The notes beneath the pieces were generated by a model. It had not been told where the DNA came from and made no database searches. It saw only the letters and a list, made by a program, of their open reading frames with translations. The position numbers were made by a program, and so were the translations under genes. From Herbaspirillum sp. SJZ107 (GTDB lineage: Bacteria; Pseudomonadota; Gammaproteobacteria; Burkholderiales; Burkholderiaceae_D): a stretch of DNA of 64,000 nucleotides. Positions 33,758-47,842 of the stretch are shown here, piece after piece; the first letter of the stretch is position 1, and each line of letters begins with the position of its first letter. The stretch lies in assembly GCF_006715485.1 (NCBI RefSeq), contig NZ_VFNH01000001.1, forward strand, positions 620,001 through 684,000, in the 5' to 3' direction.

Positions 33758-34792
33758 TCAGCCGGCGTCGACCTTGTCGAGCAGCAGCGGCGGTTCGCTG
33801 CCCATGTCGACCAGCGGCGCCGTTGCCGTGGGCGCATGCAGGTGCGAATACAGCGGCGAGTCGGAGCGGTAGGGCACGCGGCCGGACGGCACGTGCTTGG
33901 CGGCCGGGTCGAGGTGCAGGTCCTGGTCGTCGAAGAAGATGTGGGCGCGGAAGGCTTTGACCACCTTGGTCTTCTGCACGCCGCCGAGGAAGAAGATCTC
34001 GTTGACGTACACGCCCCAGTGGCGCAGCGTATTGATCACGCGCATCTCGGCCGGGGCGCTGCGTGCGGTGACGATCGCGATGCGCACCGGCGACACGTCG
34101 GCCCCGAACGGCAGGCGCTTCTGCAGGCTGGCCAGCTTGCGCAGCAGGATGGCGTAAGGGCCATCGGCCATCGGCTCTTTCTGCTTTTCGTTCTCGGTGG
34201 TGTGGAAGCGCTCCAGGCCCTCGGTCTTGTAGACCAGTTCGCTGGCATCGTCGAACAGCACGGCGTCGCCGTCGAAGGCGATGCGCACCTGGTCGTCGGG
34301 CGGCGCGTCCCCACCCTGCGGCGGCGCCTTCAGCACTGCCGCGGCCGCCGCCTTGGCGTCGATCACGCGCTGGGCATCTTCGACGTTGGTGGTCAGGAAC
34401 AGGTCCACCGCGAAGGCGTCCAGATAATCGACCACCGAATGCCCGCCGGTAAAGGCATGGCGCGAGATGGAGAGGCCGCGCGAGCGGATATTGTTGAAGA
34501 CGCGCACCCCGGTCTCGGGACTGTTGCGCGACATGACGACCACCTCGACCAGCGGCTTCGATTCCGACGGCGCGTAGCGGTTCAGGCCGAGCAGGGCGCG
34601 CACCAGCGCCATGCCTGTGCCGTCGCGCAGCGGTTCGTTTTCGCGTTCCAGCATGTAGGCGCGGTATTCGTCGAGCGCATTGTTCGGGTTTTTCGCGTAC
34701 TTGGCTTTATAGACGGCGTCGGCTTCGGCCAGGTCGAACAGGGCCGTGGCGGAGATGCCGACAACGAGGGTCTCTGATAGGTCGAGGGGCAT
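33758..34792 (-). CDS. Cytosolic 5'-nucleotidase I family protein
   Basis: 344 residues matching the family of vertebrate NT5C1A/B and their bacterial homologues, which dephosphorylate AMP and other nucleoside monophosphates. HAD-like signatures are visible: VVVMSRNSPETG, the VRIAFDGDAVLFDD motif and IFFDDQDLHL. No signal peptide. It is divergent from the Fur-box-preceded operon. Substrate preference is inferred from the family. Confidence 0.9.
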   Translation of the reverse strand: MPLDLSETLVVGISATALFDLAEADAVYKAKYAKNPNNALDEYRAYMLERENEPLRDGTGMALVRALLGLNRYAPSESKPLVEVVVMSRNSPETGVRVFNNIRSRGLSISRHAFTGGHSVVDYLDAFAVDLFLTTNVEDAQRVIDAKAAAAAVLKAPPQGGDAPPDDQVRIAFDGDAVLFDDASELVYKTEGLERFHTTENEKQKEPMADGPYAILLRKLASLQKRLPFGADVSPVRIAIVTARSAPAEMRVINTLRHWGVYVNEIFFLGGVQKTKVVKAFRAHIFFDDQDLHLDPAAKHVPSGRVPYRSDSPLYSHLHAPTATAPLVDMGSEPPLLLDKVDAG

Positions 34793-34956
34793 GGCAGCGA
34801 TGGGGTCAGGAAATCGGTCGGTGTCGGATGGTAACCGACGAGCGGGTCGGATGAATGCATGACCTCGTAAGAATATTCCTTTAGGAAAGAGACGGGGCAG
34901 GAGTTTCTTGAATTATTGAGTTGCGGCAACTATACATAGTCGACTTCACATTTAAT

Positions 34957-34975
34957 GATAATGATTCTCATTTAC
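34957..34975. promoter_or_regulatory. Fur box upstream of the small Cys protein / DUF2325 pair
   Basis: The 19-base sequence GATAATGATTCTCATTTAC matches 15 of 19 positions of the classical Fur consensus, with the first nine identical. It lies 52 bases upstream of the 77-residue gene. The surrounding DNA is AT-rich, as expected for a promoter. Iron-dependent repression is inferred. Confidence 0.75.
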
Positions 34976-35026
34976 ATAAGAGCGGAACTGGGTTAGAGTA
35001 AAACCGTCTCCTTACCGAGGGCTGCC

Positions 35027-35260
35027 ATGACCGCCTCCCATTCTTCCTGCAACTGCATCGTCCTGTCTGCCGGCCCGGCCGGCCAGGTGCTGGCCTGCCC
35101 CGAGTGCGGCACCATCCACCTGCACCTGTCCCAGCTCACGCTGCGCCTCGACCCCGACGGCTTCAGCGAGCTGAGCGTCATCGTCGCCAAGGCCCAGCAC
35201 CTGCTGGACGAAGCCCGTACCCGGCTTGCGGCCAAGGCCGAGCGGCCGGCCCTGCATTGA
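35027..35260 (+). CDS. Small Cys-motif protein, probably iron-regulated
   Basis: 77 residues. Four Cys (C8, C10 in CNC and C24, C27 in CPECG) could bind a metal as a zinc-ribbon or rubredoxin-like knuckle. The second half is helical. No signal peptide. The start is preceded by GAGGG. It follows a Fur box and is 9 bases upstream of the DUF2325 gene. I do not recognise a named family. Confidence 0.75.
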   Translation: MTASHSSCNCIVLSAGPAGQVLACPECGTIHLHLSQLTLRLDPDGFSELSVIVAKAQHLLDEARTRLAAKAERPALH

Positions 35261-35269
35261 GGGGCGGCC

Positions 35270-36469
35270 ATGTGCGAACACGCCATCAAGGACAGTTGCA
35301 CGGGTGAGGTCGAGCCCGTCGGATCGCGCCGCCGGCGCCTGTGGGAGCTGCCGACCAATTGCCATTGCCCGCTGATTGGGGTCTGCCTGCCGCTGGCAAT
35401 GCTGCGCAGGCTCGTCAACAAGCTGCTGGTGCGGCCGCTGGAGGGAGACGACTACGACGTCCACGTCTGGGCCGTGCACGAATGCGCGAGCCGCAACCGC
35501 ATGGCCGAGCTGCTGCAGCGCACCCTCGACGAACGCTTCGCCACCGTGCTGCGCCAGTTCCGCGGCCTGCGCGATGCCGCCGCCCTGCACGCGGCCTGGC
35601 GCCAGGCGGTCGAACGCGGCGACGTCGCCGGCCCGTTCTGGGCCACGCTGACCCATCCGCGCTGCGACCTGGCCATGATCGAAAACGTGGTGCGCGACAT
35701 GCACATGATCCAGCACCAGGCCGGCGCCAGCACGCGGGTCGACCTGGGCCGCTTCGCCGAGCTGCAGAAGCAGAACGCGGGCATCTCCCGCGAGCTGGAG
35801 CAGACCCGGGACAAGGCTGCACGCACTGCCGACGCCAGGACGCGCGAGCTGGCCCGGCTGACCGCGGAGGGCTGTCAACTGCGCGCCGAACTGGCCCAGC
35901 GCGACAGCACGATCGAATCCTTGCGACGCGAGCTGGACACGCTGCAGGCCGCGCTGCCGGACCTGCGCGACCGCGAGCGCCTGGCGCGCCGGGTCGAGGA
36001 ACTGGAAGCGCGCGAACAGGCGCTGTCGGACAAGATGGCGCAGCTGCGCCAGCGCTTTGCACGCGAACGCCAGGAGGCGGCTACGCCGCCGCCGTTGCCG
36101 CCGGTGCAGCCTGCGCCTGCTGCTGTTTCCGCGCCGGCGCTGGACCTGGCCGACAAGACCGTGCTGTGCGTCGGCGGGCGCAGCGGCAACGTGCCGAACT
36201 ACCGCGACCTGCTCGAAAAGGAAGGCGCGCGCTTCATGCACCACGACGGCGGCCTCGAGCAGGCCAGCGAACTGCTCGACACCAGCCTGGCCGCAGCCGA
36301 CCTGGTGATCTGCCAGACCGGCTGCATCAGCCACCAGGCTTACTGGCGCGTCAAGGATTTCTGCAAGCGCAACGGCAAGCGCTGCGTATTCGTGGATAAC
36401 CCGAGCACCTCGAGTTTTTCCGTGTGCCTGCGCAAGGTGGCCATGCCGGTAGCGGACGGCGTGACCTGA
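35270..36469 (+). CDS. DUF2325 domain protein with Cys/His-rich N-terminus and coiled coil
   Basis: 399 residues. The N-terminus is rich in possible metal ligands (C2, H4, C10, C31, H32, C33, C39). Residues about 150-275 are coiled coil (LEQTRDKAARTADARTREL and after). After a Pro/Ala linker the DUF2325 domain (about 300-390) begins with KTVLCVGGRSGNVPNYRDLL and holds ICQTGCISHQAY. Proteins of this family are uncharacterised; the Fur box and the small Cys protein upstream suggest a role in iron limitation or metal handling. Translation start ATG 35270 is preceded by GAGGGGCGG. Confidence 0.85.
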   Translation: MCEHAIKDSCTGEVEPVGSRRRRLWELPTNCHCPLIGVCLPLAMLRRLVNKLLVRPLEGDDYDVHVWAVHECASRNRMAELLQRTLDERFATVLRQFRGLRDAAALHAAWRQAVERGDVAGPFWATLTHPRCDLAMIENVVRDMHMIQHQAGASTRVDLGRFAELQKQNAGISRELEQTRDKAARTADARTRELARLTAEGCQLRAELAQRDSTIESLRRELDTLQAALPDLRDRERLARRVEELEAREQALSDKMAQLRQRFARERQEAATPPPLPPVQPAPAAVSAPALDLADKTVLCVGGRSGNVPNYRDLLEKEGARFMHHDGGLEQASELLDTSLAAADLVICQTGCISHQAYWRVKDFCKRNGKRCVFVDNPSTSSFSVCLRKVAMPVADGVT

Positions 36470-36661
36470 GCCCTTGTCCGGTGCGGCGATCCGTGCTGCA
36501 TCGGACAGATTCTTTCTTCATTTGGAGGTGTCTGCTGGATGCCACGGATTCGCCGGCTTTTTCGTTGCACGGCACGGGAAATGACGTTGCGCAATTGTTC
36601 TGCAGAACCATAAGGTAGCTTGGCAAGGTTGTCGACGACTTGCCAGGGAGCTTGCCGGGTC

Positions 36662-39244
36662 ATGAGCACTGCGCTGAGGGATCAGATCGTGACTGCGCTG
36701 GGGGCATTTGCCAGTAGCAGCCGCTTGTATGCGCTGACGCTGGGCGATGGCGATGACGATGGCATGCTGCTGGTCGAGGCGTTCTCCTCCGACGACGCGA
36801 TCGACGCCATCGGCACCCGCGACGTGATTGTGCTGTCGACCAGCGCCCACCTCGACGCCGGCACCTGGCTCGGCCAGCCGGCCGCACTCGACATCAGTCA
36901 GGCCGACGGCACCCGCACCCGCTTCGCCGGCGACATCAGCGAGGTCGAGATGCTGGGCAGCGACGGCGGCCTGGCGCGCTACCGCATCCGTATCGCCTCC
37001 TGGCTGTGGCGCCTGGCGCACGTGCGCAACAGCCGCGTGTGGCAAGAGCGCAGCGTGGTCGAGATTGTCGACAGCGTGTTCGAAGCCTATCAACCGCTGG
37101 CACGCTGGCGCTGGAGCGACGATGTCGGGTCGCGCATGGAGGGCGTCCCGCCACGCAGCTACTGCTGCCAGTACCGAGAGTCCGACCTCGGCTTCGTGCG
37201 CCGCCTGCTGGCCGAGGAGGGCCTGTGCTGGCGCATCGAACAGGACCAAGACGGGCCCGGTATCGTACTGTTCGCCGACAGCACCCGGCAAGCCGCGGTA
37301 CCCGCGGACGCGACGTGCGCGGCCGAAGACGGCATCCGCTATCACGGCGCACGTTCGGTCGAGCGCCAGGACACAATACAGGCGCTGGCTGCCCGGCGCA
37401 GCCTGCACGTTTCCCTCACCACTTTACTCAGCAGCGACTACAAGGCCAAGCAGATCGTGGCCGCCAGCTCGCCGTCGCTGGTCCGTCCCGGGCGCAATCT
37501 GCCCGTGCTGGAATCCTTCGATATGCCGCGCCCGTATGCGTTCGCGACGCGCGAGCAGGCCCAGCGCCATGCCGACATGCGCATGGAAGCACAGGAAGCG
37601 CGCGGCCAGCTGTGGCATGGGCGTTCGACCGTGCGTACGCTGCGTGCCGGTACGCGGATGACGGTCACCGGTACGCCCTTGCGGTCGCTTGGCGAGGCGT
37701 CGTCGTTTACGGTAGTGCGCGTCACCAGCTTCGGCGTGAACAACCTGCCGACGGTTGCCCAGCAGGCACTGGCGCAGCTGTTCGGACCGCTCGAGGACGT
37801 GCTGCAATCGCTTGTGTCTGTGGAGCGGCCCGACGACCTCGCGCAGGCACTGGCGCAGGCACGCGAGACCGGTTACGCCAACTGCTTCGATGCGCTGCCC
37901 GCCGACATCGTCTGGCGTCCCATCGCCGACGACCAGCCGACCGCCCTCGGCAGCCAGAGCGCGATCGTGATCGGCGCCGACGGCAATGACCAGCCCAACG
38001 GCGCCGACGAACTGTATTGCGACCGCCTTGGCCGGGTGCGCATTCGTTTCCACTGGCAGGACGACGACTGCAGCTGCTGGGTCCGTGTCGCACAACGTGT
38101 GGCCGGCGCCGGCATGGGCAGCCAGTTTTTGCCGCGCATCGGCCAGGAAGTGCTGGTGCAATTTCTCGAGAACGATGTCGACCGGCCGATCATCGTCGGC
38201 GCGCTCTACAACGGCCGCGGTGAAGGCGGCATCGCGCCCACGCCCGGCGGGAGATTCGATGCTGACAGCAATCCGGCGGTCTTCGCGCCAGCCCACGATC
38301 AGGCGCGCTCGGGGCAGGGCAATCTGACTGGGGGCAATAGCCCGGTATGGCATGGCGCTTCGGCCGACAGCGACGGCCATCGCAATCCGGCAGCGCAGTG
38401 GGGTGTGCGCAGCAAGGAATTTGGTGGGGCGGGCTACAACCAGTTGCTGTTCGACGATACCGATGGGCAGGGGCGGGTGCAGCTCAGGTCTACGCATGGG
38501 GCGGCGTCGCTCGACCTGGGGCACTTGGTTCATGCGGCTGACAATTATCGCGGCAGCTTTCGCGGGCTGGGCGCTGAACTGCGGACAGATACCTATGGTG
38601 CGGCGAGGGCAGGGAAGGGCTTGCTCGTGTCGAGTTATTCGATCAATCACAGTGCCTCAATGCGTGATTCGGCTGGTGAAAATGCCGCAGGGGTTGGGCT
38701 GCTGACGCAAATGAGAAAGCTGGTAGACGTTTTTCATTCGACTTCCGTAATGCATCAAACGGGTGGACTGGCTTTCCATTCAGAAGGGGGCAAGGTGGCG
38801 GACTCGCGTGATCCGATGATCACACTGGCTTGCAAAGAAGGTCTTGGTGCGAGTGCTGGGCAAAGTTTACAGTTGGCGAACGGCGAAACCGTTGTGTTGG
38901 TGAGTGGAGAAAATGTCCAGTTCAATACGGGGAGCCAGATGCGTTTACAGGCGGGTCAAGTCATTGGCGTACTTGGCGGGGCTACCAGTGTCACCGAGGG
39001 AAAGGAAGGGTTGCAGCTGATCACTGCGAAGGATATGGTTGATATACAGGCACAGACGGGGGAACTGAAAGTGAAAGCCCGCGATGAGATCAACGTATTA
39101 AGTGCAAATGGTCATATTGACTGGGCGGCGGCGACGCGTATCTCATTGTCTACAACCGGCGGCGCAAATATCGTAATCGAAAGCGGAAATATTGAAGTAC
39201 GGTGTCCAGGAAAGATCACAGTGCATGCGGGGAGGAAGAGCTGA
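36662..39244 (+). CDS. vgrG: Type VI secretion VgrG spike protein with DUF2345 C-terminal region
   Basis: 860 residues forming the trimeric tip of the T6SS needle. A gp27-like base (about 1-390) is followed by a gp5-like OB-fold (about 430-520; DRLGRVRIRFHWQDDD, VLVQFLENDVDRPIIVGALYNG). A DUF2345/beta-helix extension runs to the C-terminus. The DNA is GC-rich like the chromosome until about 38,550 and then becomes clearly AT-richer with different codon use, so the 3' third looks recombined. ATG 36662 fits the family start. No other T6SS structural genes lie in the window. The DUF4123 and DUF2235 genes downstream are its likely adaptor and cargo. Confidence 0.93.
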   Translation: MSTALRDQIVTALGAFASSSRLYALTLGDGDDDGMLLVEAFSSDDAIDAIGTRDVIVLSTSAHLDAGTWLGQPAALDISQADGTRTRFAGDISEVEMLGSDGGLARYRIRIASWLWRLAHVRNSRVWQERSVVEIVDSVFEAYQPLARWRWSDDVGSRMEGVPPRSYCCQYRESDLGFVRRLLAEEGLCWRIEQDQDGPGIVLFADSTRQAAVPADATCAAEDGIRYHGARSVERQDTIQALAARRSLHVSLTTLLSSDYKAKQIVAASSPSLVRPGRNLPVLESFDMPRPYAFATREQAQRHADMRMEAQEARGQLWHGRSTVRTLRAGTRMTVTGTPLRSLGEASSFTVVRVTSFGVNNLPTVAQQALAQLFGPLEDVLQSLVSVERPDDLAQALAQARETGYANCFDALPADIVWRPIADDQPTALGSQSAIVIGADGNDQPNGADELYCDRLGRVRIRFHWQDDDCSCWVRVAQRVAGAGMGSQFLPRIGQEVLVQFLENDVDRPIIVGALYNGRGEGGIAPTPGGRFDADSNPAVFAPAHDQARSGQGNLTGGNSPVWHGASADSDGHRNPAAQWGVRSKEFGGAGYNQLLFDDTDGQGRVQLRSTHGAASLDLGHLVHAADNYRGSFRGLGAELRTDTYGAARAGKGLLVSSYSINHSASMRDSAGENAAGVGLLTQMRKLVDVFHSTSVMHQTGGLAFHSEGGKVADSRDPMITLACKEGLGASAGQSLQLANGETVVLVSGENVQFNTGSQMRLQAGQVIGVLGGATSVTEGKEGLQLITAKDMVDIQAQTGELKVKARDEINVLSANGHIDWAAATRISLSTTGGANIVIESGNIEVRCPGKITVHAGRKS

Positions 39245-45624: not shown

Positions 45625-46713
45625 TCAGTTCAGGTCCTTCATGTGGAAGTTGACTGAAAGAGAGCGCTCTACCGTACCATCTTTCTTCTTCGGTAGTGGT
45701 GACGATTTGTTAATACTGCGTTCCACGGCGTCGTCGAACTCTGGAATGCCGCTGCTCTTGACCTTCCTGACCGACACCACTTCACCGGTCGGCAACTGCT
45801 CGACCTTGAAGCTGACGGTCGGATTGCCCGGCACATCGGTGTTGCCCGCGTAGTTCGCATTGCTCTTGATCTTGGCGGCGATCGCGGCCTGGTAGCCGGC
45901 GTCGAGACGCGGCGCTGTCGACTTCTCGGCGCTGCCGGTGCTGCCCGGATTGCCGCTGCCGGTGATGCGTTTCGTCTCTGCGTCACGCGACAGCTTGGCG
46001 AGCTTGGCCAGCTGGTCGGCTTCGGCTTTCTCTTTCGCAGCCTTGTCCTTGGCAGCTTTTTCCTTGGCCAGTTTCTCGGCCTTTTCCTTGTCCGCTTTTT
46101 TCTTTTCCGCTTCTTCTTTCCTGGCCTGTTCCTGTTTCGCCAGCTGTTCCTTCTTCTCGGCGGCTTCGCGTTCCTTCTGTTCGGCCAGCTTGCGCTCTTT
46201 TTCCTCGCGCTGGCGCTCCTGCTTGTCGGCCAGGGCCTTGGCTTTCTTTTCGTCGGCGCGCTTCTGTTCGGCGAGCTCGCGTTCGCGTTCCAGACGGTCT
46301 TCTTCCTCCTGCGCCTGCTTGCGCTTCAGCTCTTCCTTGCGCTTCTTTTCGCGCTCGAGGGCGATATCCGGCGTCTTCGGCGCCGGCTTGGCGACCGGCT
46401 CCGGCTTGGCAACCGGCGGCGGTGGGGGCGGCTCGGCCGCGCGCGGCGTCGGTGCCGGCGGCGTCGGCTCGGGTTCCGGTTCGGGCTCGGGTTCAGGCGC
46501 GGGCGGCGGTGGCGGCGGGGCGGCCGACTGGACCTTCATGTCCCAGACTTCGGCTTCGACCTGGATCGGCGCAGTGGTCTGCCAGCTCACGCCGATGTAC
46601 AGGAAGGCCAGCAGGAGGGCGTGCACGCCCACCGCCAGGCTGATCGACGGCCAGCGTTTCGGTTCGGGCGGCACCCGGTAGGGCGAGCCGGCGGTGTCGT
46701 GCTTGGTCGTCAT
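45625..46713 (-). CDS. tolA: Tol-Pal energy-transducing protein TolA
   Basis: 362 residues. One N-terminal membrane helix (about 22-42), a Pro/Glu-rich stretch (about 68-115), a long Lys/Glu/Ala helical domain II (about 120-245) and a C-terminal TonB-like domain III (about 270-362; PTVSFKVEQLPTGEVVSVRKV). It spans the periplasm from TolQR to TolB/Pal. ATG 46713 overlaps the tolR stop by four bases. Confidence 0.95.
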   Translation of the reverse strand: MTTKHDTAGSPYRVPPEPKRWPSISLAVGVHALLLAFLYIGVSWQTTAPIQVEAEVWDMKVQSAAPPPPPPAPEPEPEPEPEPTPPAPTPRAAEPPPPPPVAKPEPVAKPAPKTPDIALEREKKRKEELKRKQAQEEEDRLERERELAEQKRADEKKAKALADKQERQREEKERKLAEQKEREAAEKKEQLAKQEQARKEEAEKKKADKEKAEKLAKEKAAKDKAAKEKAEADQLAKLAKLSRDAETKRITGSGNPGSTGSAEKSTAPRLDAGYQAAIAAKIKSNANYAGNTDVPGNPTVSFKVEQLPTGEVVSVRKVKSSGIPEFDDAVERSINKSSPLPKKKDGTVERSLSVNFHMKDLN

Positions 46714-47138
46714 TTTGTCGCAAGGCCGACGCGATTGATCCCCATCTTCTTGGCTTCCGAAATCAGCTGGATCACGTCGTCGTATTTACTGTCGCGGTCG
46801 CCCGAGATCAGCACCGGATAGTCGGGATGGTCTTCGTGGGTGGCGCGCAGGCGCTCGATCAGCGCGGTGCGGTCGGCCACGTCTTCCAGGCCTTGCGGGG
46901 TCTTCCCGACGATGCCGATCGACAGCACGCCCTTTTCCTTGACGGCGATCTGGATGTAGTCGCTCGGCGGCTGGGTGGTGCGCTCGGCGCTCGGCAGGTT
47001 GATTTCGCTCGGATTCTGGGACGGCGGCACCGCCATGAAGATGATGAGCAGCACCAGCATCACGTCGATGTAGGGCACGACGTTGATTTCCGATTTGAGC
47101 TTGCGGCGGCTGCTCCGCAAGTTGCTGTTGAAGGCCAT
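46710..47138 (-). CDS. tolR: Tol-Pal proton-channel subunit TolR
   Basis: 142 residues, ExbD/TolR family. A single membrane helix (about 19-39) holds the proton-carrying Asp in VVPYIDVMLVLLIIFM. The periplasmic domain ends with the usual KMGINRVGLATK region. It works with TolQ to energise TolA. Confidence 0.97.
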   Translation of the reverse strand: MAFNSNLRSSRRKLKSEINVVPYIDVMLVLLIIFMAVPPSQNPSEINLPSAERTTQPPSDYIQIAVKEKGVLSIGIVGKTPQGLEDVADRTALIERLRATHEDHPDYPVLISGDRDSKYDDVIQLISEAKKMGINRVGLATK

Positions 47139-47158
47139 GTGAGTCCTCGACGCGGCGA

Positions 47159-47842
47159 TCAGCGCGACTGGCGCTGCAGGATGTTCGAGAATTCCTCGAC
47201 GAAGCTTTCGAAGCGGATCGCGAGGCGGTCGATGTCGTGGGTGAAGCGGTTGTACGCGACCACGGCCGGGATCGCGGCGAACAGGCCGATGGCGGTGGCG
47301 ATCAGCGCTTCGGCAATGCCGGGGGCGACCGTTGCCAGCGTCGCCTGCTGCACGCTGGCCAGGCCGCGGAAGGCGTTCATGATGCCCCAGACCGTGCCCA
47401 GCAGGCCGATGTAGGGAGAGACCGAACCGACCGAGGCCAGGAAGTTCAGGTGGGTGTCGAGCGAATCGAGTTCGCGGTGGAAGGCGGCGCGCATTGCGCG
47501 GCGGGCGCCGTCCAGCACGGCATTGACGTCGAGCGAGTCGCGCGCGGCCTGCTTGCCCTTGATGAATTCGCCCATGCCGGCTTCGAAGATGCGCGCCAGC
47601 GGGCCGCTCTGGTCGCGCTGGCTGCTGGCGCTCTGGTGCAGGGTATGCAAATTGCCGCCGGCCCAGAAGCTGCGCTCGAACTGCTCGGTCTGGCGACGCG
47701 CGGCGCGCAGTGCGAATACCTTGCGGAAGATGTAGGTCCAGCTGAACAGCGACACGGCAAACAGCAGGGCCATGATCAGCTTGACGAGGATGTGGGCGTG
47801 GCTGATCAGGTCAACGAAGGAAAGGTCGGGGACTGCGTTCAT
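47159..47842 (-). CDS. tolQ: Tol-Pal proton-channel subunit TolQ
   Basis: 227 residues, MotA/TolQ/ExbB family. Three membrane helices (about 16-38, 133-155 and 168-190), with the conserved GTVWGIMNAF and ALIATAIGLFAAIPAVVAYN regions. The pentamer encloses the TolR dimer and converts proton flow into TolA movement. Confidence 0.97.
   Translation of the reverse strand: MNAVPDLSFVDLISHAHILVKLIMALLFAVSLFSWTYIFRKVFALRAARRQTEQFERSFWAGGNLHTLHQSASSQRDQSGPLARIFEAGMGEFIKGKQAARDSLDVNAVLDGARRAMRAAFHRELDSLDTHLNFLASVGSVSPYIGLLGTVWGIMNAFRGLASVQQATLATVAPGIAEALIATAIGLFAAIPAVVAYNRFTHDIDRLAIRFESFVEEFSNILQRQSR

Follow-up and report, generated by a model that had tools for sequence, protein, structure and literature searches.

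Why would two Cys-rich proteins be encoded directly behind a Fur box? This question is raised by a locus of the Massilia-like bacterium Herbaspirillum sp. SJZ107 (assembly GCF_006715485.1, contig NZ_VFNH01000001.1), of which we analysed positions 620,001 to 684,000; this stretch of 64,000 nucleotides is referred to as the window. Here a Fur box precedes a gene for a 77-residue protein, of a family denoted sCys, and a gene for a long protein with a DUF2325 domain (Table 1). We regard it as nearly certain that this pair belongs to the Fur regulon, and see an even chance that both proteins are Fur-repressed accessories of the HemP/TonB heme-iron uptake regulon that act through the mechanism proposed below. 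The iron reading is well supported by comparison within the genus and by the gene company elsewhere, and the two proteins are probably overlooked helpers in the handling of scarce iron.

The Fur box and the predicted transcription unit

A preliminary description of this locus, made from the letters alone, had rightly placed a Fur box before the pair, although the match to the consensus is one base better than the 15/19 given there. No match to this box was obtained in 100 shuffles of the window. The overlapping palindrome is even more distinctive: a perfect AATGANAATNATTNTCATT is found at just two places in the 6.72-Mb genome (before the pair and before a TonB-receptor-like gene) and with one mismatch at four further places, against none for the reversed control of the pattern. 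The Fur box of the pair is exceptional within its genome.

The neighbourhoods of these six near-perfect sites were identified by eye, except for Bfd (Pfam) and sHel and bfr (our own hidden Markov models, HMMs). Besides the site of the sCys/DUF2325 pair, two sites each stand by a TonB receptor and a PepSY-like protein. Another adjoins Bfd (PF04324, 54 bits) together with bfr and a feoB-like gene, another a set of PepSY/DUF2271/DUF4198/ApbE-like genes, flanked on its opposite side by a sucA-like gene, and the last a lone 118-aa gene of the family sHel (E 4e-23). Only the pair and sHel are without an obvious link to iron. The sHel gene (L215, C2 about 424016) stands alone behind its box.

Since the -35 element of a sigma-70-like promoter overlaps the Fur box, binding of Fur would be expected to block this promoter. 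Promoter-like sites in the region are above chance (2 found against 0.2 expected), and the pair carries a box in its promoter beyond chance. The G+C content is 40% in the 126 bases before sCys against 65% for the window, and no Rfam family (known RNA element) was found in the leader at the pair locus. The DUF2325 gene starts 9 bases after the small gene, as had been described, and a hairpin follows 5 bases past its stop; terminator-like hairpins in the region (2 found, 1.2 expected) are by themselves not above chance. Most simply, the pair would form a two-gene transcription unit, and at the level of sequence its predicted control is demonstrably of the Fur type.

Own HMMs detect neither hemP nor sHel in the whole 64-kb window, and the unit here consists of two genes only: hemP, tonB-exbBD and hmu genes are absent from the operon of the pair in the window, whereas one or other of them is present in that of many relatives. 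The VgrG-type spike gene of the type VI secretion system further on (TIGR03361) was rejected as a member of the unit, because it starts beyond the terminator-like hairpin and because the motif search saw VgrG only in the region of the nearest relative (L115). Genes for an ExbB/TolQ-type (PF01618) and an ExbD-like protein, some 10 kb away, were taken as unrelated to the pair.

Table 1. Positions of the features of the pair and of genes around it, counted from the first base of the window.
Feature	Position	Strand	Remarks
5'-nucleotidase gene	33758-34792	-	divergent from the pair
Palindrome AATGATAATGATTCTCATT	34954-34972		overlaps Fur box; perfect match to AATGANAATNATTNTCATT
Fur box GATAATGATTCTCATTTAC	34957-34975	.	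16/19 against the 19-base consensus (3 mismatches); kept in genus
Sigma-70-like promoter, TTTACA-17-TAGAGT	34971-34999	+	-35 overlaps Fur box
sCys gene	35027-35260	+	77 codons; from the list of open reading frames (ORFs)
Long DUF2325 gene	35270-36469	+	399 codons/aa; ORF list and Pfam
N-terminal helical domain, residues 29-133	35354-35668	+	H32-C33-P34, H65, C72, H129
Long helices/coiled coil, residues 134-271	35669-36082	+	predicted model; weak coiled-coil Pfam matches
DUF2325 domain, residues 298-389	36161-36436	+	predicted alpha-beta fold, Rossmann/receiver-like
Intrinsic-terminator-like hairpin	36474-36508	+	15 pairs
VgrG-type gene	36620-39244	+	after the hairpin
ExbB/TolQ-type and ExbD-like genes	46710-47842	-

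Conservation within the genus

The long DUF2325 gene is present in 33 of the 62 genus genomes searched (the genome of the window included), of which 29 were examined. The search gave 30 loci, including one truncated at the end of its contig. A Fur-like box with at most 6 mismatches out of 19 precedes DUF2325 or its sCys in 28 of the 29 genomes, against 4 of 210 controls, and if 7 mismatches are allowed the box is found in all 29 (controls 14/210). Controls were the upstream regions of other genes in the same regions; five sCys loci were searched over 300 bases, the remaining loci and the controls over about 150. At the level of sequence, the absence of the pair beside Fur boxes in relatives, which the preliminary description had named as evidence against an iron module, did not occur.

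The small gene is less widespread: sCys was found in 8 of 101 relatives searched, six of them in the genus, where it always stands in front of DUF2325. In Massilia sp. YIM B02763 (G013; L009/L129) it is cut to 33 codons and ends soon after CPECGTIH, with the first Cys and CPECG kept and the Fur box and DUF2325 intact.

Gene company outside the genus

A contig scan with the DUF2325 alignment yielded 141 relatives, 80 of which (the named loci) were kept and fetched with 5-kb flanks. These derive from Massilia, Janthinobacterium, Duganella, Rugamonas, Pseudoduganella, Undibacterium, Malikia, Rhodoferax, Polaromonas, Curvibacter, an Acidovorax metagenome-assembled genome (MAG) and others. Genes in the scripted scans were called with a simple ORF caller. 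Neighbours were recognised with own HMMs (hemP, sHel, sCys, bfr, exbB and exbD) that were seeded from the same loci, and related loci are not independent. Pfam was used to check hemP, ferritin, TonB_C, ExbB, HemS, Bfd and a short Fur-like ORF (two examples each gave 59 and 62 bits for hemP with PF10636, and 72 bits for bfr with PF00210), whereas HmuT, HmuUV, FeoB, PepSY, DUF2271, DUF4198, ApbE, TonB receptors, rpsD and sucA were named by eye from translations.

At least one of the HMM neighbours is present in 75 of the 80 named loci: hemP in 56, sHel in 52, sCys in 17, bfr in 9, and exbB and exbD in 1. The five loci without any are L127 (contig end), L129 (the truncated sCys), L141, L147 and L192. 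The order hemP-sHel-DUF2325 is seen in Janthinobacterium, Duganella, Rugamonas and Pseudoduganella; hemP, sCys and DUF2325 occur together in Undibacterium (L168, L173), and hemP-DUF2325 in L166 and L196. Finally, sCys-DUF2325 is the layout in Massilia, Undibacterium, Malikia, Polaromonas, the Acidovorax MAG and other Burkholderiales MAGs, in several cases followed by bfr. In L165 (Rhodoferax ferrireducens OTU1) a short DUF2325-like ORF, recognised by eye, lies at -841 to -419 from the DUF2325 start on the opposite strand.

With at most 7 mismatches, Fur boxes precede 72 of 79 unit heads in the named loci against 166 of 517 control genes; with at most 6 the figures are 54/79 and 55/517. The controls include 26 of the 517 with at most 3 mismatches, which are likely real Fur sites of iron neighbours. 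In related genera, most of these boxes share a single form, GCAAATACGAATCATTCTC or close to it, and a single position ahead of hemP.

The sCys profile (A2) was searched in 399 genomes of the order and found in 21 (15 at E<=1e-8); over the phylum it was seen in 8 of 398 genomes, three already known and five weak. Around 14 sCys loci outside the genus (the weak matches L092 and L093 were left out) we observe sHel in 9, exbB/exbD in 6, hemP in 5 and bfr in 1. HmuS (PF05171) lies beside sCys in L078, hmuUV-like genes upstream of it in L088 (by eye), and L085, from another family (f21), combines sCys with DUF2325 and a Fur box of 5 mismatches. In 8 of the 14, the 650 bases upstream contain a Fur box with at most 5 mismatches. 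Given these neighbours, sCys marks TonB/heme-type operons by itself. In L082, a short Fur-like ORF of 90 aa (PF01475, 32 bits) and an opposite bacterioferritin gene come after sCys.

Long DUF2325 proteins occur in 48 of the 399 genomes at E<=1e-15, in 30 over most of the profile. We fetched 28 loci from other families, of which L274 counts neither way (the wrong frame was read). A Fur box with at most 5 mismatches lies within 1.2 kb in 10 of the 28 (L248-L250, L253, L255, L256, L258, L266, L268, L273); L271 and L275 are incomplete, and the absence of a box there says little. The neighbours include hemP in 8 (L252, L255-L257, L263-L265, L268; in some 3-5 kb away), exbB with exbD in 3 (L252, L255, L257), bfr in 3 (L261, L263, L265) and sHel in 2 (L258, L264), with the order hemP-sHel-HmuS-like-DUF2325 in L264. 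Four annotated plasmid relatives (Rhizobium, Azospirillum, Aureimonas and Caballeronia) keep mixed company, which includes msrB/dipZ followed at some distance by an iron ATP-binding cassette transporter, exbB-exbD-tonB some 5 kb upstream, and nifQ. The plasmid loci L041 and L043, which lack gene tables, were left out of the comparison.

The 15 genomes with sCys at E<=1e-8 and the 30 with DUF2325 over most of the profile have 4 in common, against about 1.1 expected by chance, and the two genes are adjacent in 3 (hypergeometric P about 0.02, which ignores kinship). On this comparison, sCys and long DUF2325 are co-members of a set rather than an obligate pair, and the set is larger than the pair. 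The iron-starvation module proposed in the preliminary description is supported in its iron part, which draws on the Fur boxes throughout the genus, on the other best boxes of the genome at iron-type loci or sHel, and on relatives that adjoin hemP, tonB-exbBD, bfr and hmu genes. Its equation of the module with these two genes alone is not supported.

The small helical family sHel recurs beside hemP, sCys or DUF2325 (L078, L081, L083, L084, L086, L087 and L089-L091, in addition to the named loci counted above). A gene that by eye resembles that of ribosomal protein S4, and that may be an additional S4 copy under iron control, is found beside Fur-like boxes, sHel, sCys and tonB in L079-L081, L083 and L086, and upstream of DUF2325 in L254 and L270.

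The two proteins

All protein features noted in the preliminary description are borne out: the CNC (C8, C10) and CPECG (C24, C27) motifs of the small protein, the Cys/His-loaded N-terminus of the DUF2325 protein, and its coiled-coil middle, which is predicted as long helices. Across 16 aligned sCys proteins, that of the window and those of all named loci with sCys but two (15 of 17, L174 and L189 left out), C8, C24, C27, H31 and the C-terminal H77 are invariant; in a more distant set of 7, C8, C24, C27 and H77 are kept. The remaining C10 is not conserved in the wider family. AlphaFold models sCys as four beta strands and a long helix, with a predicted local distance difference test score (pLDDT) of 88.

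Neither a Bfd nor a HemP identity is tenable for sCys, as it gives no Pfam match to either family: PF04324 (Fer2_BFD) finds nothing in it while recognising the Bfd of the same genome, and PF10636 (hemP) has no match up to E = 1 in either window protein, with the hemP of two relatives (59 and 62 bits) as control. The best Pfam match of 5 out of 6 sCys members tested is DUF6686 (PF20391), over a similar stretch of the profile, with 16.6 bits for the window protein and at best 20.4 among the six, below the cut-off of 23.9. No Pfam match above cut-off was obtained for sCys or sHel in the members tested.

The long protein belongs to PF10087 (DUF2325) with 84.5 bits against a cut-off of 33.6. Among 41 aligned DUF2325 proteins, the invariant residues of the N-terminal part are H32-C33-P34, H65, C72, H129, H145 and H149, the last two lying in the long helix after the N-terminal domain; those of the DUF2325 domain are C300, H324-H325-D326, C348, C352, H355, C365 and C372. 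Cys-Pro can be a heme motif. In the model (pLDDT 85, predicted template modelling (TM) score 0.46), a helical domain at the N-terminus is followed by long helices and an alpha-beta domain. As read from secondary structure, C300, H325-D326 and C348-C352-H355 map to the ends of strands 1, 2 and 3 or immediately behind them; in the predicted fold, these strand ends would be the positions where receiver and Rossmann folds hold their ligand. By sequence, the helical stretch matches a Bicaudal D chain (E 0.008), which is the single match in the Protein Data Bank (PDB), and by fold no Foldseek match in the PDB reaches E<=0.001. The siroheme synthase CysG, found as a first Foldseek match (E 0.005, low TM), was missing among the 50 matches listed in a second look and was not used.

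Proposed role

We propose that Fe-Fur represses the two-gene unit and that iron shortage would switch it on. Both products would be cytosolic accessory proteins. Imported heme or iron reaching the cytosol might be bound by the DUF2325 protein, either in the helical domain with its His-Cys-Pro motif and other Cys/His residues, or in the Cys/His cluster of the receiver-like domain, or in both. The bound state could then be relayed through the coiled coil to a partner, be it HemP-dependent regulation or iron storage, and sCys may serve as a small metal-binding partner or chaperone with a site of three Cys and a His in most members.

That the role lies in heme/iron binding, sensing or trafficking rather than in another task is a tentative view, which we rate slightly below an even chance. 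In favour of the heme side are the presence of hemP and hmu genes in the neighbourhoods, the binding of heme by ChuP, a member of the HemP family with a Fur-repressed operon (PMC9131926), and the case of Cj1384c, a short DUF2325 protein of Campylobacter jejuni and the only one for which we found published regulation. The latter, 104 aa with 7 Cys, is encoded beside katA and the heme-trafficking gene cj1386 (PMC9426514), has a Fur repression motif upstream and is up in a fur mutant (PMC4491227). The preliminary description suggested an undescribed module; Fur repression of this short relative had already been published.

A bolder idea is a hitherto unrecognised heme/iron-sensing relay of Burkholderiales, in which sHel, sCys and long DUF2325 proteins would be combined in varying ways with HemP under Fur. 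The DUF2325 protein might then be a heme- or iron-gated pseudo-receiver, its phosphorylation pocket turned into a Cys/His site, and sCys could be a minimal metalloprotein with, in most members, its own C-terminal His in the metal site. As a whole, this remains doubtful.

Several observations weigh against the proposed role. In the named loci the Fur signal loses its contrast at stricter thresholds (at most 5 mismatches: 12/79 unit heads against 32/517 controls; at most 4: 6/79 against 29/517) and thus rests on a looser box; judged by these sequences, it is weaker outside the genus than within. Four of the loci from other families (L260, L267, L269, L272) have neither a box of at most 5 mismatches nor an iron neighbour by own HMMs, and the best boxes of three plasmid relatives tested (on alphaproteobacterial plasmids) have 6-9 mismatches, none of them good. 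Within the genus, 24 of the 28 regions fetched have no match of own HMMs to hemP, sHel, a full sCys, bfr or exb, which implies that DUF2325 there mostly stands alone behind its Fur box.

The candidate sites are not universal either. The first Cys and the CxxC are present in 26 of 31 sCys loci and the C-terminal His in 27 of 31: the terminal His is missing in L174, L086, L090 and L091, the first Cys in L086, L087 and L089, and the second Cys of CxxC in L090 and L091, where the second (upstream) sCys copies have lost the Cys/His site. In both of these loci two sCys-like genes flank sHel. C348 or C352 of the DUF2325 domain is altered in relatives outside the 41 aligned (L262, L267, L269, L270). 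Structure comparison adds little: the DUF2325 domain fold matches many unrelated families with Z 8-10 over about 80-115 residues, which is generic, and for sCys nothing significant was found in the PDB by fold (best Foldseek E 1.7, best VIA Z 5.2) or below E 0.25 by sequence. Moreover, Cys/His sites can also bind zinc or have redox roles.

Alternative explanations

Redox or oxidative-stress protection under iron starvation would leave to Fur only the timing, with Cys-rich proteins that buffer peroxide or repair thiols. Cj1384c, beside katA, rises 352-fold under violet-blue light and is reported to be PerR- and RacRS-regulated (PMC9426514), and one rhizobial DUF2325 relative adjoins msrB and dipZ. 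We nonetheless find this explanation unlikely: the recurrent neighbours in Burkholderiales are heme/iron uptake and storage genes, and the conserved residues include many His, HDGG and HCP but no simple CxxC redox pair.

Alternatively, DUF2325 and/or sCys could act on bacterioferritin in the release or delivery of iron, in the manner of Bfd. The bfr gene follows DUF2325 directly in 7 of the 9 named loci that have it (L142, L144, L154, L162, L171, L181, L198), it adjoins sCys in L082, and in L265 a Bfd-like ORF (by eye) and bfr lie within about 2.5 kb after DUF2325. However, no bfr is present in the fetched flanks of the other 71 of the 80 named loci, a true Bfd is encoded in the genome behind a separate Fur box, and sCys is without a Fer2_BFD match, which makes such a role quite unlikely.

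The metal might be zinc instead of iron, with sCys as a small zinc-ribbon-like structural or regulatory protein and a Fur-family site that answers to Zur or to general metal stress. The CxxC knuckle of sCys and its weak similarity to HVO_2753_ZBP (PF07754; 14.9 bits, below the cut-off of 33.2) fit this view, but the box matches Fur, like sites precede bfd and TonB-receptor-like genes in the same genome, and in other loci the gene company is formed by hemP, tonB, bfr and hmu genes, so that we leave it only a slim chance.

It is scarcely credible that the Fur box serves the divergent 5'-nucleotidase gene, with the pair as a bystander: although the box sits between the two divergent start codons and the gene is kept beside the pair in its closest relatives, we rejected it as the Fur target because it does not travel with the box (the motif search finds it in 5 of 28 genus regions, L114 and L116-L119, all closest relatives of the pair, and in 3 of the 80 named loci, L128-L130, on the same contigs as three of those five, against a Fur-like box before DUF2325 or its sCys in 28 of 29 genus genomes), and the promoter-like site that the box overlaps is oriented towards the pair.

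Comparison with known systems

Much work has gone into Fur regulons, yet in the literature that we searched no function is assigned to sHel, sCys or long DUF2325, three families linked with hemP, TonB and bacterioferritin in Burkholderiales. DUF2325 is named there in four papers, in one of them together with Fur, and the accession PF10087 in none; most subscription papers lie outside the search, and the absence is accordingly weak. The accessible parts of three papers on hemP operons (PMC9241770, PMC9131926, PMC7377471) do not mention these families.

Among small proteins, sCys resembles Bfd (PF04324) in being Cys-rich, behind a Fur box and in an iron context. Bfd has four Cys, whereas sCys has three Cys and a His in most members and is without PF04324, and the genuine Bfd is encoded elsewhere in the genome. 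DUF6686 (PF20391) is the best Pfam match of most sCys members tested, but every score stays below the curated cut-off and membership is not claimed.

Cj1384c shares with the long protein the domain PF10087 and a richness in Cys, and combines a Fur motif with derepression in the fur mutant (PMC4491227). At its length of 104 aa (PMC9426514) it is nonetheless a different protein: the window protein adds the N-terminal Cys/His helical domain and the coiled coil, and its relatives adjoin hemP, TonB or bfr genes instead of katA.

A further parallel in setting is that of HemP/HmuP/ChuP (PF10636), likewise a small protein, which heads Fur-controlled heme/TonB operons; many relatives carry hemP in one stretch with sHel, sCys or DUF2325. 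Unlike HemP, which has already been studied, the two window proteins are without PF10636 and both are rich in Cys and His. Reports on the action of HemP differ: it is described as activating in B. multivorans and B. japonicum, as acting post-transcriptionally in E. meliloti and C. violaceum, and as repressing in S. maltophilia (PMC9131926, PMC9241770). Partners encoded in the same operon, such as those described here, could bear on these differences.

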